Source of the DNA: Candidatus Peribacteraceae bacterium
Lineage (GTDB): Bacteria > Patescibacteriota > Gracilibacteria > Peribacterales > Peribacteraceae
DNA: 36,979 bases
Assembly: GCA_028703835.1 (NCBI GenBank)
Contig: JAQVMB010000015.1
Coordinates: 1 to 36,979 of the forward strand
Direction of reading: 5' to 3'
Both the position numbers and the translations under genes were made by a program. How positions within the stretch are numbered: position 1 is the first letter of the stretch; every line of letters starts with the position of its first letter. Positions 15,070 to 29,224 of this stretch are shown piece after piece. The notes beneath the pieces are model-generated. The model worked only from the letters and a program-made list of their open reading frames with translations, ran no database searches and had not been told where the DNA came from.

Positions 15070-15705
15070 TCAATGCTTCCCCCACTCGTCTGGCTCTTCG
15101 GTGAAGCGGCGGACCATTTCGGCCTCCTCTTCCGTGATCCTGGCCTCCGCAACGGCCACATCGAGCAAAATGGAGATGGTGGCGAGCGGGTGGAATTTGA
15201 TCCTGTTGCACACGGCATTCTCCTGTGCGGCGGAAAACTCGTAGGTGAAGATGGATACCACGTCCGTCACGGTCGCTTTTCCCTCTTCCCGCAGCGCCTC
15301 GACCGTGGAAATGGAACTGCCCCCCGTGGAAATGAGGTCTTCGATGACCACCACGTCCTTCTCCGGCTTCAGGTCCCCTTCGATGCGCTTCTTCGCCCCG
15401 TGCTCCTTCGCCTTCGAACGGACGTAGACGAACGGGAGCTTCATGCGGTCGGCCACGAGCGCGGCCCAGCCGATGGCGGCGGTGGCGGTCCCCGCGATGA
15501 CGTCCGGCGGCACGTGCAATGCCTTCACACGCGCAATCAGCGCGTTGACGATGTAATCGCGCGCGTCCGGATGGCTGTAGATCATCCGGTTGTCGCAGTA
15601 GATGGGACTCTTGATCCCGCTGGCCCACGTGAACGGGGCATTCGGGGAAAGGCGGACCGCTCCGATGGAGAGGAGGAATTCCGCGATACGGTCACCGTGG
15701 GGCAT
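15070..15705 (-). CDS. pyrE: Orotate phosphoribosyltransferase
   Basis: Transfers ribose-5-phosphate from PRPP to orotate in pyrimidine synthesis, 211 residues. The N-terminus LLSIGAV, FTWASGIKSPIYCDNR and the PRPP loop VVVIEDLISTGGSS are characteristic. The start at 15705 gives the usual N-terminus and has TACCAT (15712-15717 on the other strand) ending 6 nt before it. An ATG at 15756 overlaps the upstream stop by 4 nt and would add 17 atypical residues, so both an internal promoter and readthrough from the upstream gene are possible. The 50 nt after the stop are AT-rich and lead into the surface-protein promoter. Confidence 0.92.
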   Translation of the reverse strand: MPHGDRIAEFLLSIGAVRLSPNAPFTWASGIKSPIYCDNRMIYSHPDARDYIVNALIARVKALHVPPDVIAGTATAAIGWAALVADRMKLPFVYVRSKAKEHGAKKRIEGDLKPEKDVVVIEDLISTGGSSISTVEALREEGKATVTDVVSIFTYEFSAAQENAVCNRIKFHPLATISILLDVAVAEARITEEEAEMVRRFTEEPDEWGKH

Positions 15706-15752
15706 GGCCCGATGGTAGCGACCCGGAAAGCGGGTGGCAATTATGTCACCGG

Positions 15753-16181
15753 TCATCGCGGGAATCCCAGTTCCTGCTCACTGAATTGTTGTGCTCCGAT
15801 CATCTCGCAGACACGATGAAGAGCCGTCCGTAACTCGACCGTGACGGGAGAATCCGGCGGTAAATACCGCACTGATCCGGCCAGAGGCAAAAACCCGTTG
15901 CGCAATTTGTGGCCGTTCTCCCGGAGCATATTCACGCAGGGGCCGAAGTGGGGGCTTTGGCCGTAGGCATCGAGCGCGAACCCAAGCAGGCCGAGATGCT
16001 CGTCGAACTCCGACACGCCCATCACGATTCCCAGCACTTCCGCCTGCCGCGGCGCCCCGCTGTTGCGTCCCTCCAGGAGGCAACGAATCCGCTCCGCGAA
16101 TGAACGACCCAACTCCACGTACGCCGGGTTCGTCGTGATGGCGCAGTACCGGGAGAGCTGGCCGAATTCCGGATTCTCCAT
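15753..16181 (-). CDS. Hypothetical protein upstream of pyrE, 142 aa
   Basis: No family is recognised. The protein looks soluble and mixed alpha/beta, with three cysteines; regions such as FDEHLGLLGFALDAYG and a basic central part are visible. The start at 16181 is chosen because TACAAT stands 8 nt upstream and the protein-like composition begins there; the frame further upstream runs through the ilvA leader region. The gene end abuts pyrE, so they probably form one unit. Confidence 0.6.
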   Translation of the reverse strand: MENPEFGQLSRYCAITTNPAYVELGRSFAERIRCLLEGRNSGAPRQAEVLGIVMGVSEFDEHLGLLGFALDAYGQSPHFGPCVNMLRENGHKLRNGFLPLAGSVRYLPPDSPVTVELRTALHRVCEMIGAQQFSEQELGFPR

Positions 16182-16246
16182 AGCGGTTGATTGTACCCGT
16201 TTTCCCCTTGGGCGAAAGGAAAGGGAGCCGTCGGCGTCATCGATGG

Positions 16247-16279
16247 TTGACAGCAATCCCCTTCCGCCTACGATACACG
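16247..16279 (+). promoter_or_regulatory. Promoter of the ilvA leader transcript
   Basis: Consensus TTGACA (16247-16252) is followed after 16 nt by TACGAT (16269-16274); a TACACG hexamer (16274-16279) ends 7 nt before the leader ATG. Either -10 would start transcription at or within a few nucleotides of the leader-peptide start codon. Confidence 0.6.
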
Positions 16280-16286
16280 CGTCCCC

Positions 16287-16340
16287 ATGAGCCGCCTGAA
16301 CATCATCCGCAGCATTATTATCCCCGACGCCCTGGCGTAG
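16287..16340 (+). CDS. Isoleucine-rich leader peptide of the ilvA attenuator
   Basis: The 17-residue peptide is MSRLNIIRSIIIPDALA. Five of the first twelve codons are Ile (ATC ATC, then ATT ATT ATC). It lies directly after a consensus promoter and 34 nt before an intrinsic terminator, upstream of threonine dehydratase, the first enzyme of isoleucine synthesis. This is the layout of a ribosome-stalling leader: Ile starvation would hold the ribosome on the Ile codons and change the downstream fold. Confidence 0.7.
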   Translation: MSRLNIIRSIIIPDALA

Positions 16341-16373
16341 GAGAAAGCTGCTGATCCGCACCCGCTTCCCTCT

Positions 16374-16395
16374 CCCGCGCCGCAGCGGGTTTTTT
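16374..16395 (+). terminator. Attenuator terminator 1
   Basis: CCCGC-GCCGCA-GCGGG is followed by six T. An extra CCCGCT at 16361-16366 could form a competing or longer stem with AGCGGG. The T-run ends 21 nt before the GTG at 16417. A 36-nt stretch (16365-16400) is repeated exactly at 16903-16938. Confidence 0.65.
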
Positions 16396-16416
16396 GTATC
16401 TTTCCTCCCTTCTCCC

Positions 16417-16881
16417 GTGAGCAACGTTCCCACGCCGGACCTCAACCCCATCCGCACGACCCTGCAAAGGCTCGCAGAGCTCTCGAGGCCGGGCATGCAT
16501 GCGCACCGGACACGCGTGCTCGATACGATTCACGATGCATGCGATGCCGTGCAACGGGCCCTGCGTCAGTGCGGCAAATCGCAGGAAGCGGCGACCATCG
16601 TCTACGCCGCATCCGACAGTCTCGACAGGCTGGCTGCGGAAGCCCTCGCACGCAGCGCCGACGAGCATTTGACCGCCATCGAACAGGCAAAGGGCAACGC
16701 ATCGACGGCCGACGACATCGAAGATGTGAGACGGACGATCGGCACGCTGGACCGTTACAACCTGCCCGGGATCAACGGTGTGCATGTCGATGCATTACGC
16801 GCGAGATATCACGCGCTGCTCGCCGCACGCGACAACGGCTCCGGGAACGGCACCATTATTCCCGCTTCTTCCACGGCGTAG
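16417..16881 (+). CDS. Hypothetical helical protein between two ilvA attenuators, 154 aa
   Basis: I recognise no family. The protein is probably all-helical, with an amphipathic Arg/Ala/Asp-rich pattern (LQRLAELSRPG, VQRALRQCGKSQEAATIVY, VHVDALRARYHALL). It starts with GTG 21 nt after terminator 1, behind a pyrimidine-rich tract and no Shine-Dalgarno. Its last codons, encoding GTIIPASSTA and the stop, correspond to the end of the short leader peptide (SIIIPDALA and stop), and the DNA after both stops is duplicated. Its tail may therefore serve as a second Ile-sensing leader. It lies in the same direction as ilvA and is probably cotranscribed. Confidence 0.6.
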   Translation: MSNVPTPDLNPIRTTLQRLAELSRPGMHAHRTRVLDTIHDACDAVQRALRQCGKSQEAATIVYAASDSLDRLAAEALARSADEHLTAIEQAKGNASTADDIEDVRRTIGTLDRYNLPGINGVHVDALRARYHALLAARDNGSGNGTIIPASSTA

Positions 16882-16911
16882 GAGACTTCTGATCCGCACT
16901 CACTTCCCTCT

Positions 16912-16933
16912 CCCGCGCCGCAGCGGGTTTTTT
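16912..16933 (+). terminator. Attenuator terminator 2, before ilvA
   Basis: The same CCCGC-GCCGCA-GCGGG stem and six T as at 16374, part of an exact 36-nt duplication (16903-16938). The T-run ends 22 nt before the ilvA ATG, so termination here would silence ilvA while leaving the upstream ORF transcribed. Confidence 0.65.
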
Positions 16934-16955
16934 GTATCCCTTTCTTCCCTTCCCC

Positions 16956-18242
16956 ATGCATTCCACCGCAGAACAACGGCCCACGACGGACGAGATGCGC
17001 GCGACGCGCCGTTCCTTTCCCCCGTCCCTCGTCGTGACGACGCCGCTCGAATGCCATGAACGGTTGTCGCAGGAACACGGCGTCCCCGTCTTCCTCAAAG
17101 GCGAAGACCGGCAGACGGTCCGTTCCTACAAAGTGCGGGGCGCCGCCGCGAAGATGCTCTCGCTCACCGAGGAAGAGCTGAGACGCGGCATCGTCTGCGC
17201 CAGCGCCGGCAACCACGCGCAGGGCGTGGCGGCGTGCTGCAATATGCTGGAACGGCCGGGGACGGTCTTCATGCCGCGCACGACGCCGCTGCAGAAGATC
17301 GAAGCGACGCAACGGCGCGGCAACGGCCATGTGGACATACGGCTGGAAGGCGACGCTTTCGACGAAACGGCGCAAAACGCCCTGTCCTTCGCCGGAGAAC
17401 ATGCGGCGACGTACATCCATCCCTTCGACGATTGGAAAGTGATCGAAGGACAGGGAAGCGTCGCGCTGGAAATAGCCGAACAGGTCGAACGGCAACGCCT
17501 GAAGCTGGCCGCGGTGATCGTCCCCGTCGGCGGCGGGGGCCTGATGGCCGGGACCGTCCTCGCGCTGCGCGAGACGCATCCCGATACGCTCATCGTCGGC
17601 GTCGAACCGGCGGGGGCGGCATGCATGGCGGCCGCCGTTGCGGAAGGACATCCCGTCACGCTGCCCGCGGTGGATGCGTTCGTGGACGGGGCGGCGGTGG
17701 CCCGGGCGGGCGAACGCCCGTTCGCCGTGGTCGCCGAAGCGATCCGCGCAGGAAGGGCGCGCCTCCTCACCGTCTCCAACAACCGTCTCTCCGCGAGCAT
17801 GGCCGACCTGCTCCAGATGGACGGCCGGGTCACGGAACCCGCGGTAGCATTGTCGGTCGCGGCCCTCGATGCGGTGGCGTCCCGAACGCGGGACGGCGTC
17901 GTGACATGCGTCGTCTCCGGCGGCAACTTGGACATGCGACGCATGCCGAAGATCCTGCAACATGCGGAGCTGCACCGCCGCACCACAGTCTTCCTGCAGG
18001 TGACGCTGCCGGACAGGCCGGGAGCGCTGCAGGAAATGCTCGCGACGGCTGCGGACGTCCTGCCGCGCGTCAACATCTGCTACATGCGATTCGACGATGA
18101 CGAGGGAAATGGAGGCTCCCCGCCGCTTACGGTCGGCTTCCAATCAAAGGAAGGAAAGCCGGAAGACATCACCCTGCTGGTGGACACACTGAAGAACGCC
18201 CGCTTCCACATCCGGGAACTCAGCTGCAAACCGGCGGGATAG
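16956..18242 (+). CDS. ilvA: Threonine dehydratase (threonine ammonia-lyase), short form with regulatory domain
   Basis: PLP enzyme converting threonine to 2-oxobutanoate, the entry to isoleucine synthesis, 428 residues. K59 in RSYKVRGAAAK is the PLP lysine, SAGNHAQG (83-90) binds substrate and GGGGLMAG (192-199) binds the cofactor phosphate. Residues from about 335 on (RRTTVFLQVTLPDRPGAL onward) form an ACT-like regulatory domain of the short, Corynebacterium-type enzyme, where isoleucine would inhibit. The start is the ATG 22 nt after terminator 2; an upstream TTG would overlap the T-run. Regulation by the Ile leader peptide agrees with this function. No other ilv genes are in the window. 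Confidence 0.93.
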   Translation: MHSTAEQRPTTDEMRATRRSFPPSLVVTTPLECHERLSQEHGVPVFLKGEDRQTVRSYKVRGAAAKMLSLTEEELRRGIVCASAGNHAQGVAACCNMLERPGTVFMPRTTPLQKIEATQRRGNGHVDIRLEGDAFDETAQNALSFAGEHAATYIHPFDDWKVIEGQGSVALEIAEQVERQRLKLAAVIVPVGGGGLMAGTVLALRETHPDTLIVGVEPAGAACMAAAVAEGHPVTLPAVDAFVDGAAVARAGERPFAVVAEAIRAGRARLLTVSNNRLSASMADLLQMDGRVTEPAVALSVAALDAVASRTRDGVVTCVVSGGNLDMRRMPKILQHAELHRRTTVFLQVTLPDRPGALQEMLATAADVLPRVNICYMRFDDDEGNGGSPPLTVGFQSKEGKPEDITLLVDTLKNARFHIRELSCKPAG

Positions 18243-18289
18243 GACCCGGAAAGCGGGAATTGCGGCCGCGCAACAGGTATCATGCCCCC

Positions 18290-19015
18290 GTGACCGATCC
18301 CGCTCTCGAACCGCGTCTCCGGCAACTCCTCACGGTCTTCCTGGAGGAGAACAAGAAGTTGAACCTGTCCGCGTTCCGGACGGAGGAACAATGCTGGATC
18401 GGAAATATCCTCGACTCACTGGCGGCATTGGAGTTGCCGTTCCTCTCGCGGCTTCTCCCCCACCCCCCTTCCCCCTCCCCCAATGGGGGAGGGGGAGCAG
18501 AGGGGGTGAGGGAACTACTGGACCTGGGCACCGGCGGCGGCTTCCCGCTCCTGCCGCTGGCGATCGCCCTGCCGGACGTACGCTTCACAGGACTCGACTC
18601 GGTGCAGAAGAAAGTGGACGCCGTGAACCGGATGATCGGGACGCTCGCGCTCCCGAACGCGCGATGCGTGTGCGGACGAGCGGAAGAATTGGGACGGTCG
18701 GACGCGTACCGTGAACGCTTCGACGTGGTGACGTCGCGCGCGGTGTCCGACGTGAACGTGCTCCTGGAGTACGCCAGCCCCTTCGTGAAGCCGGGCGGGC
18801 GCGTGGTGCTCTGGAAGAGCGTGACCATCGATCAGGAATTGCATGATTCCCTCCTCGCCCGCGCCGAGCTCTCCTGCCATCTCATCCATCAGCATGTCTA
18901 CGAGCTGCCGGGCGACTGGGGCAAGCGCCAGCTCCTCGTCTTCGAGAAGTCCTCGCCGTTGTCGGGGAAGTATCCGCGCGACATCGGCGTTCCCAAGAAA
19001 GATCCCTTGAAGTGA
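18290..19015 (+). CDS. rsmG: 16S rRNA (guanine-N7) methyltransferase with in-frame palindromic insertion
   Basis: SAM-dependent methyltransferase acting on G527 of 16S rRNA, 241 residues. LDLGTGGGFPLLPLAIALP (77-95) is the SAM-binding motif I, and the fold continues with GLDSVQKKVDAVN and VTSRAVSDVNVLLEY. Between ILDS (40-43) and motif I there are about 33 residues instead of about 15. The extra part, LLPHPPSPSPNGGGGAEGV (about 55-73), is encoded by a GC-rich palindrome also found at 20961. The start is a GTG at 18290 because TATCAT (18278-18283) ends 6 nt before it. Confidence 0.9.
   Translation: MTDPALEPRLRQLLTVFLEENKKLNLSAFRTEEQCWIGNILDSLAALELPFLSRLLPHPPSPSPNGGGGAEGVRELLDLGTGGGFPLLPLAIALPDVRFTGLDSVQKKVDAVNRMIGTLALPNARCVCGRAEELGRSDAYRERFDVVTSRAVSDVNVLLEYASPFVKPGGRVVLWKSVTIDQELHDSLLARAELSCHLIHQHVYELPGDWGKRQLLVFEKSSPLSGKYPRDIGVPKKDPLK
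18453..18513. repeat. Palindromic repeat inserted in the rsmG coding sequence
   Basis: Arms CCCCCTCCCCCA and TGGGGGAGGGGG (about 18471-18494) are flanked by further inverted C-rich and G-rich blocks ending GGGTGAGGGA. It matches the intergenic element at 20961-21006. Its length keeps the rsmG frame open, and it codes for a Pro/Ser/Gly-rich loop. Confidence 0.8.
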
Positions 19016-29200: not shown

Positions 29201-29224
29201 CCCCGCTGCGCAGCGGGGTTTTTT
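29201..29224 (+). terminator. Terminator or attenuator directly upstream of trpB
   Basis: A perfect palindrome, CCCCGCTG-CG-CAGCGGGG, is followed by six T. The T-run ends 22 nt before the trpB ATG, the same spacing as the two ilvA-region terminators. CGCTG in the leader ORF could pair with CAGCG of the stem as an alternative fold. Confidence 0.7.

Follow-up and report, generated by a model that had tools for sequence, protein, structure and literature searches.

The window, by which we mean the whole stretch of DNA that was analysed, is 36,979 nucleotides long and constitutes an entire contig (C18) of a 1.34-Mb genome (G000). The host is an uncultured member of the Peribacteraceae, in the Candidate Phyla Radiation. 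On the plus strand we observed, in this order, a promoter, a first leader peptide, a first terminator, an open reading frame for 154 residues (ORF154), a second terminator, ilvA and rsmG. The ilvA gene (16956..18242) encodes a threonine ammonia-lyase of 428 aa (PF00291, E = 2.4e-61), whose best NCBIfam model, NF006390, scored 395 bits, below the cut-off of 421. The rsmG (GidB) gene (18260..19015) is kept 3' of ilvA in G001 and G002, and 3' of a cimA-like gene in G003.

The consensus promoter claimed in the initial annotation was found as TTGACA (16247-16252) and TACGAT (16269-16274), separated by 16 nt. It is the only promoter-like site on the plus strand of the region 15700-17100, for which the chance expectation is ∼0.2 over both strands. 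The ATG of the leader peptide lies 12 nt past the −10 box, and in the relatives, where the promoter was measured, this distance was 8–12 nt. The ATG itself, or a position a few bases 5' of it, is therefore the expected transcription start, and the earlier description of the peptide as probably leaderless holds. The peptide itself (MSRLNIIRSIIIPDALA, 16287..16340 from ATG to TAG) has the 17 residues and the five Ile codons reported earlier, the latter at 16302-16307 and 16314-16322. Five Ile residues out of 17 have a probability of ∼0.002, given 5.5% Ile.

Downstream of the Ile codons, the RNA can form three competing helices. A small protector (1:2) hairpin, ACGC-CCTG-GCGT (16327..16338), lies over the end of the leader. 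It is followed by a long antiterminator (2:3), GGCGUGAGGAAGUAG / CUACUCUCCCGCGCC, in which GGCGTAGGAGA... pairs with ...TCTCCCGCGCC (16333..16382; −22.2 kcal/mol, z = −2.6). The terminator (3:4), CCCGCGCCGCAGCGGG with a T6 tail (16374..16395), is made of CCCGC / GCGGG and the T-run. Both intrinsic terminators of the initial annotation are present, the second one at 16912-16933, and the mutually exclusive folds that it had proposed to look for were found in copy 1 as well as in copy 2. In the equilibrium fold of the isolated element the antiterminator is favoured over the terminator, so that the off state would depend on coupling to translation. None of the Rfam covariance models, including those of T-boxes and riboswitches, matched the element above its gathering score. 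On comparative grounds, presented below, we identify the first block (16247-16395) as a transcription attenuator that is ribosome-mediated and reads Ile codons.

Of the 74 genomes of the family, 10 have this ilvA. The Ile-rich leader and a terminator precede ilvA in all ten, at the position for which the initial annotation had proposed the comparison. In the first nine ilvA genomes inspected, the leaders have 16–18 residues and 3–6 Ile codons, the last of which lies 11–17 nt before the GGCG that opens the antiterminator; the tenth, G100, has the same layout of leader and element. A hairpin comparable to the protector, with the GGCG as its 3' arm, occurs in nearly all the Ile elements, mostly with 3–5 bp. 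Over 21 elements, 91% of the cells of the antiterminator are paired, compared with 31–60% when the partners are slid. This alignment was fitted to the structure, which favours the antiterminator helix, but the helix also emerged, at 90%, from the initial MAFFT alignment. There are 13 double-change cells in the 21 elements, and 0/500 shuffles were as good in covariation score; the covariation was weak on the first ten sequences and became clear on 21. RNAalifold returned the terminator only from the first alignment, because the two exclusive folds compete with each other. A covariance model of the element, run against 353 genomes from the class, gave matches at E ≤ 1e-4 in 23, all of them within the Peribacteraceae, and a looser search confined to the family added more.

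Small orphan ORFs between the attenuator and ilvA were also seen in G009 (119 aa), G094 (107 aa) and G100 (105 aa). The one in G094 has a stop codon that overlaps the ATG of ilvA, and those of G009 and G094 are homologous to each other (48%). ORF154 has no similarity to these 107–119 aa ORFs of G094 and G009, and was rejected as their homolog. In another family of the class, a relative of ilvA (G060:C1) has 12 in-frame TGA codons, which fits with TGA being read as an amino acid.

The same leader also stands in front of other genes. The Ile element lies before citramalate-/isopropylmalate-synthase-like (HMGL-type) genes in 14 genomes that do not have this ilvA, namely nine genomes and five weaker-scoring ones. 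The HMGL-type gene of G015 scores above the cut-off of NCBIfam for citramalate synthase (460 versus 450). For others of this type citramalate synthase is the best NCBIfam model, with scores below the cut-off, and the G095 and G084 genes resemble 2-isopropylmalate synthase more closely. In G003, which belongs to the genus of G000, a citramalate-synthase-like gene occupies the ilvA locus, and rsmG, an rlmE-like gene and an ABC gene are downstream in both genomes. In G044 (G044:C12:23000-26500), an Ile-rich leader with a GTG start precedes a 124-aa orphan ORF and ABC transporter genes. The ABC ATPase there is of the LivG/Urt type, and the sole NCBIfam match of the binding protein is a branched-chain amino acid family, below the cut-off; the probable target is thus a branched-chain amino acid ABC transporter. 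Of the entries into isoleucine synthesis, the two known best are those catalysed by threonine dehydratase and by citramalate synthase. The presence of one leader over both of these entry enzymes, which are unrelated and have been swapped under it, is strong evidence from the compared genomes that the element senses isoleucine and exerts isoleucine control.

These observations bear on two other explanations of the first block. The conserved peptides might act as arrest peptides or as trans-acting small proteins and not through their Ile codons, and in line with this, one part of their pattern, II-S-III, is seen again from genus to genus. However, what the peptides have in common is mainly the Ile codons and the RNA-pairing 3' end, while the other residues vary, and the targets are Ile-linked genes from unrelated families; we consider such a peptide function very unlikely. 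Even less probable is that the terminators are ordinary ones that happen to follow short spurious ORFs, ilvA having an unrecognised promoter of its own. To our knowledge, no promoter has been experimentally established in this phylum, which leaves some room for it, but neither the preservation across many genera of the leader, the spacing and the alternative helices nor the target swaps would be expected from such an arrangement. The Ile-codon attenuator is the reading that we retain for the first block.

The region in front of ilvA contains a second copy of this block. The 36 identical nucleotides reported in the initial annotation (16365-16400 and 16903-16938) were confirmed exactly, and they are part of a duplicate core of 53 nt with 94% identity (16348-16400 / 16886-16938). 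The homologous block extends further, over 16334-16419 / 16875-16958. In both copies it begins with the GGCG at the stop codon of the leader, spans the terminator and the untranslated region, and reaches the next start codon. The second terminator (16912-16933, with a T6 tail) is identical to the first one and ends 22 nt before the ilvA ATG at 16956, as had been stated. A search of the G000 genome with the terminator, allowing ≤3 mismatches, returned the two copies and one weaker match at 29202, and the block was therefore rejected as a genome-wide repeat.

Between the two terminators lies the 154-aa ORF of the initial annotation, which runs from GTG to TAG (16417..16881) and starts 21 nt past terminator 1. 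Its frame is open and has the best coding score of the six frames (0.14 versus −0.19 or lower), so it is probably coding. ORF154 is an orphan: no protein family was found for it, and its only relative in genome_contigs, viral_contigs and 79 related genomes was a marginal match (32%, E = 2.8e-5) with a stop inside. An AF2 model from the single sequence gave a helical bundle (mean pLDDT 77), which had no match in the PDB at E ≤ 0.001. Residues 143–154 are unstructured in this model, which is what one would predict if this tail had a role in RNA control.

It is this tail that connects ORF154 to the second copy. The protein ends in GTIIPASSTA, and its residues 147–148 are encoded by ATT ATT (16855..16860), the last of which lies 17 nt before the GGCG, a spacing that also occurs in several of the relatives' leaders. 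The two codons are followed by a protector hairpin, CGCT-8nt-GGCG (16863..16878), which is weaker (−3.5 kcal/mol) than that of copy 1, and by an antiterminator (16874..16920; −17.8 kcal/mol, z = −2.8) that folds as in copy 1. Thus, the control codons, antiterminator and terminator of a second leader are all present before ilvA, within 16855-16933. The initial annotation had matched the end of ORF154 to that of leader 1. This likeness rests on the ATT ATT pair and the reading frame; it does not extend to overall identity, since 5' of the GGCG the two copies have no significant DNA similarity (p = 0.13). Descent of the ORF154 tail from a leader peptide is therefore no more than plausible.

We considered whether only the first block works. 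According to this explanation, the second block arose as a by-product when recombination brought in ORF154; the duplicated terminator would merely end the ORF154 message, and ilvA would be served by partial read-through. The duplication is seen in G000 only, which would agree with this, as would the dissimilar DNA upstream of the GGCG and the weaker protector hairpin of copy 2. Such a by-product, however, would not be expected to carry two rare Ile codons in frame at a functional spacing. ATT accounts for 7/144 Ile codons (5%) in six genes of G000, and the naive chance of ATT ATT in one of three usable slots is ∼1.5e-5 (0.006 for any II). Moreover, the antiterminator of copy 2 has remained intact despite three changed positions in its loop region, and no promoter for ilvA was found downstream of copy 2. 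We regard the by-product as unlikely, though it is the most serious of the alternatives. The proposal that ORF154 acts as a second leader is supported by the in-frame codons, their spacing, the antiterminator and the terminator. The arrangement is confined to this genome: two matches at one locus were found in G000 only, the relatives have no second gate, and no close relative was found. Judged by its anatomy, the second block (16855-16933) is probably a second gate in series. There is no promoter-like site on the plus strand between the two gates, so transcription of ilvA should require the passage of both. We therefore favour, with reasonable though not high confidence, a serial model in which the Ile-codon attenuator 1 and then an attenuator in the tail of ORF154 both control ilvA.

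The comparison of sequences shows the leader, the conserved alternative folds and the target swaps, whereas the ribosome positions, the default state in the absence of translation and the working of the second gate are what we infer. The serial model would operate as follows. RNA synthesis would start at the leader ATG or just 5' of it. When Ile-tRNA is ample, the ribosome would finish the 17-aa peptide and, at the stop codon, cover GGCGUAG, the 5' arm of the antiterminator, upon which the CCCGC/GCGGG terminator would fold and the RNA would end at ∼16395. When Ile-tRNA is scarce, the ribosome would stall on the Ile codons 11–17 nt upstream and cover the 5' arm of the protector hairpin. The GGCGUAG, now free, would pair with UCUCCCGCGCC, which would destroy the terminator and allow the polymerase to read on. 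In G000, this read-through would lead to transcription of ORF154, the translation of which ends inside the second copy of the switch. Ribosomes that move past ATT ATT to the TAG would cause termination at ∼16933, and ribosomes stalled at ATT ATT would let the polymerase enter ilvA. Two gates in series responding to one signal should make the induction of ilvA steeper, ORF154 being behind one gate only.

Several known systems resemble this arrangement. In enterobacteria, ilvGMEDA and ilvBN are subject to ribosome-mediated attenuation by branched-chain codons, and ilvA is among the targets in E. coli. They share this principle with the Peribacteraceae element. Their peptides and leaders, however, are longer, their control is multivalent (Ile/Val/Leu), their starts are of the Shine-Dalgarno type, and a full ilv operon lies downstream. 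The attenuator of ilvBNC in Corynebacterium glutamicum has been described by a three-hairpin model in which the mRNA is treated as leaderless (PMC11857589). It is similar to the present element in its leader peptide with control codons, its anti-antiterminator, antiterminator and terminator hairpins, and the freeing of the antiterminator by stalling. The codons there are Leu/Val, whereas here they are Ile, and a single gate precedes a branched-chain operon; no homology is known between the two RNAs. A transcript whose 5' end coincides with the ATG of its leader ORF is known for trpL of Sinorhizobium meliloti (PMC7298713), an alphaproteobacterial leaderless leader peptide with Trp codons and a single gate. 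Tandem attenuators before one operon have been reported for Salmonella mgtCBR (PMC3641672), which is like G000 in having two attenuators in series. There, however, two short leader ORFs respond to two signals (ATP and Pro), whereas in G000 one signal would be read twice and the second leader would be the tail of an ORF of 154 codons. In the open-licence literature we found no report of leader-peptide attenuation in Patescibacteria or the Candidate Phyla Radiation. Relative to these systems, the new features are the bacterial lineage, the way in which one leader has had unrelated targets exchanged under it, and the use of a gene tail as the second leader.

A related element, also with a leader peptide and a terminator, was seen upstream of uvrD-type helicase genes in ∼14 genomes. 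Its peptides are rich in Val/Leu (e.g. MQQHQIVVSLVLVVVPQG), and small ORFs of no known kind usually lie between the leader and the helicase gene. In G000 this element is at G000:C12:38343-38395 (locus L125, G000:C12:36500-43978), behind an rmuC-like gene. The others are in G014:C8, G003:C2, G007:C6, G090:C39, G009:C91, G093:C37, G015:C3, G095:C42, G096:C16, G094:C14, G030:C1:809480, G018:C29 and G023:C47. Some of these leaders (loci L125, L160 and L164) have an in-frame insertion of a CCTGAGCTCGTCGAAGGG-like repeat, encoding the peptide PELVEG.

The fate of the IlvA product is puzzling. Unexpectedly, neither ilvC nor ilvD was found in G000 or in the other 47 family genomes searched (0/48); in other families of the class these genes are present in 10/31 genomes, and all controls (14/14) have them. 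The aconitase family, to which LeuC would belong, is missing in G000, G015 and G018; it occurs in G003. Many family genomes without ilvC and ilvD nevertheless keep ilvA or a citramalate-synthase-like gene under the Ile leader. In the absence of ilvC and ilvD, the regulated first step has no recognised continuation to isoleucine. As the rest of the pathway is absent, it is doubtful that the IlvA product goes to isoleucine in G000, and isoleucine feedback on this product is a mere hypothesis for the family. The product may have another use, may be exported to a partner cell, or may be processed by unrecognised enzymes. Peribacteria have been described as lacking the biosynthesis of most amino acids and as probably symbiotic (PMC4736985).

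A broader proposal, which we hold to be as readily wrong as right, joins all of this. The last codons of ORF154 would be the leader peptide of the next gene and form the second of two serial Ile gates. The lineage would keep an isoleucine regulon (ilvA, cimA/leuA-like genes and a branched-chain-type transporter) without the downstream pathway, and would have Val/Leu leaders before its uvrD operons. Leader-peptide attenuation would then be a general gauge of amino acids in Patescibacteria.

The tandem gate suggests a route by which a second gate can originate, namely through the end of a gene receiving a copy of an attenuator. At the same locus, one RNA switch has been retained and its target enzyme exchanged for an unrelated one. 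This raises the question of why a reduced genome without ilvC and ilvD senses isoleucine in order to make 2-oxobutyrate or citramalate, and whether the pathway is finished by a partner cell. Very little is known about how genes are regulated in the Candidate Phyla Radiation, and here the comparison of sequences by itself yields a regulon with a named signal.
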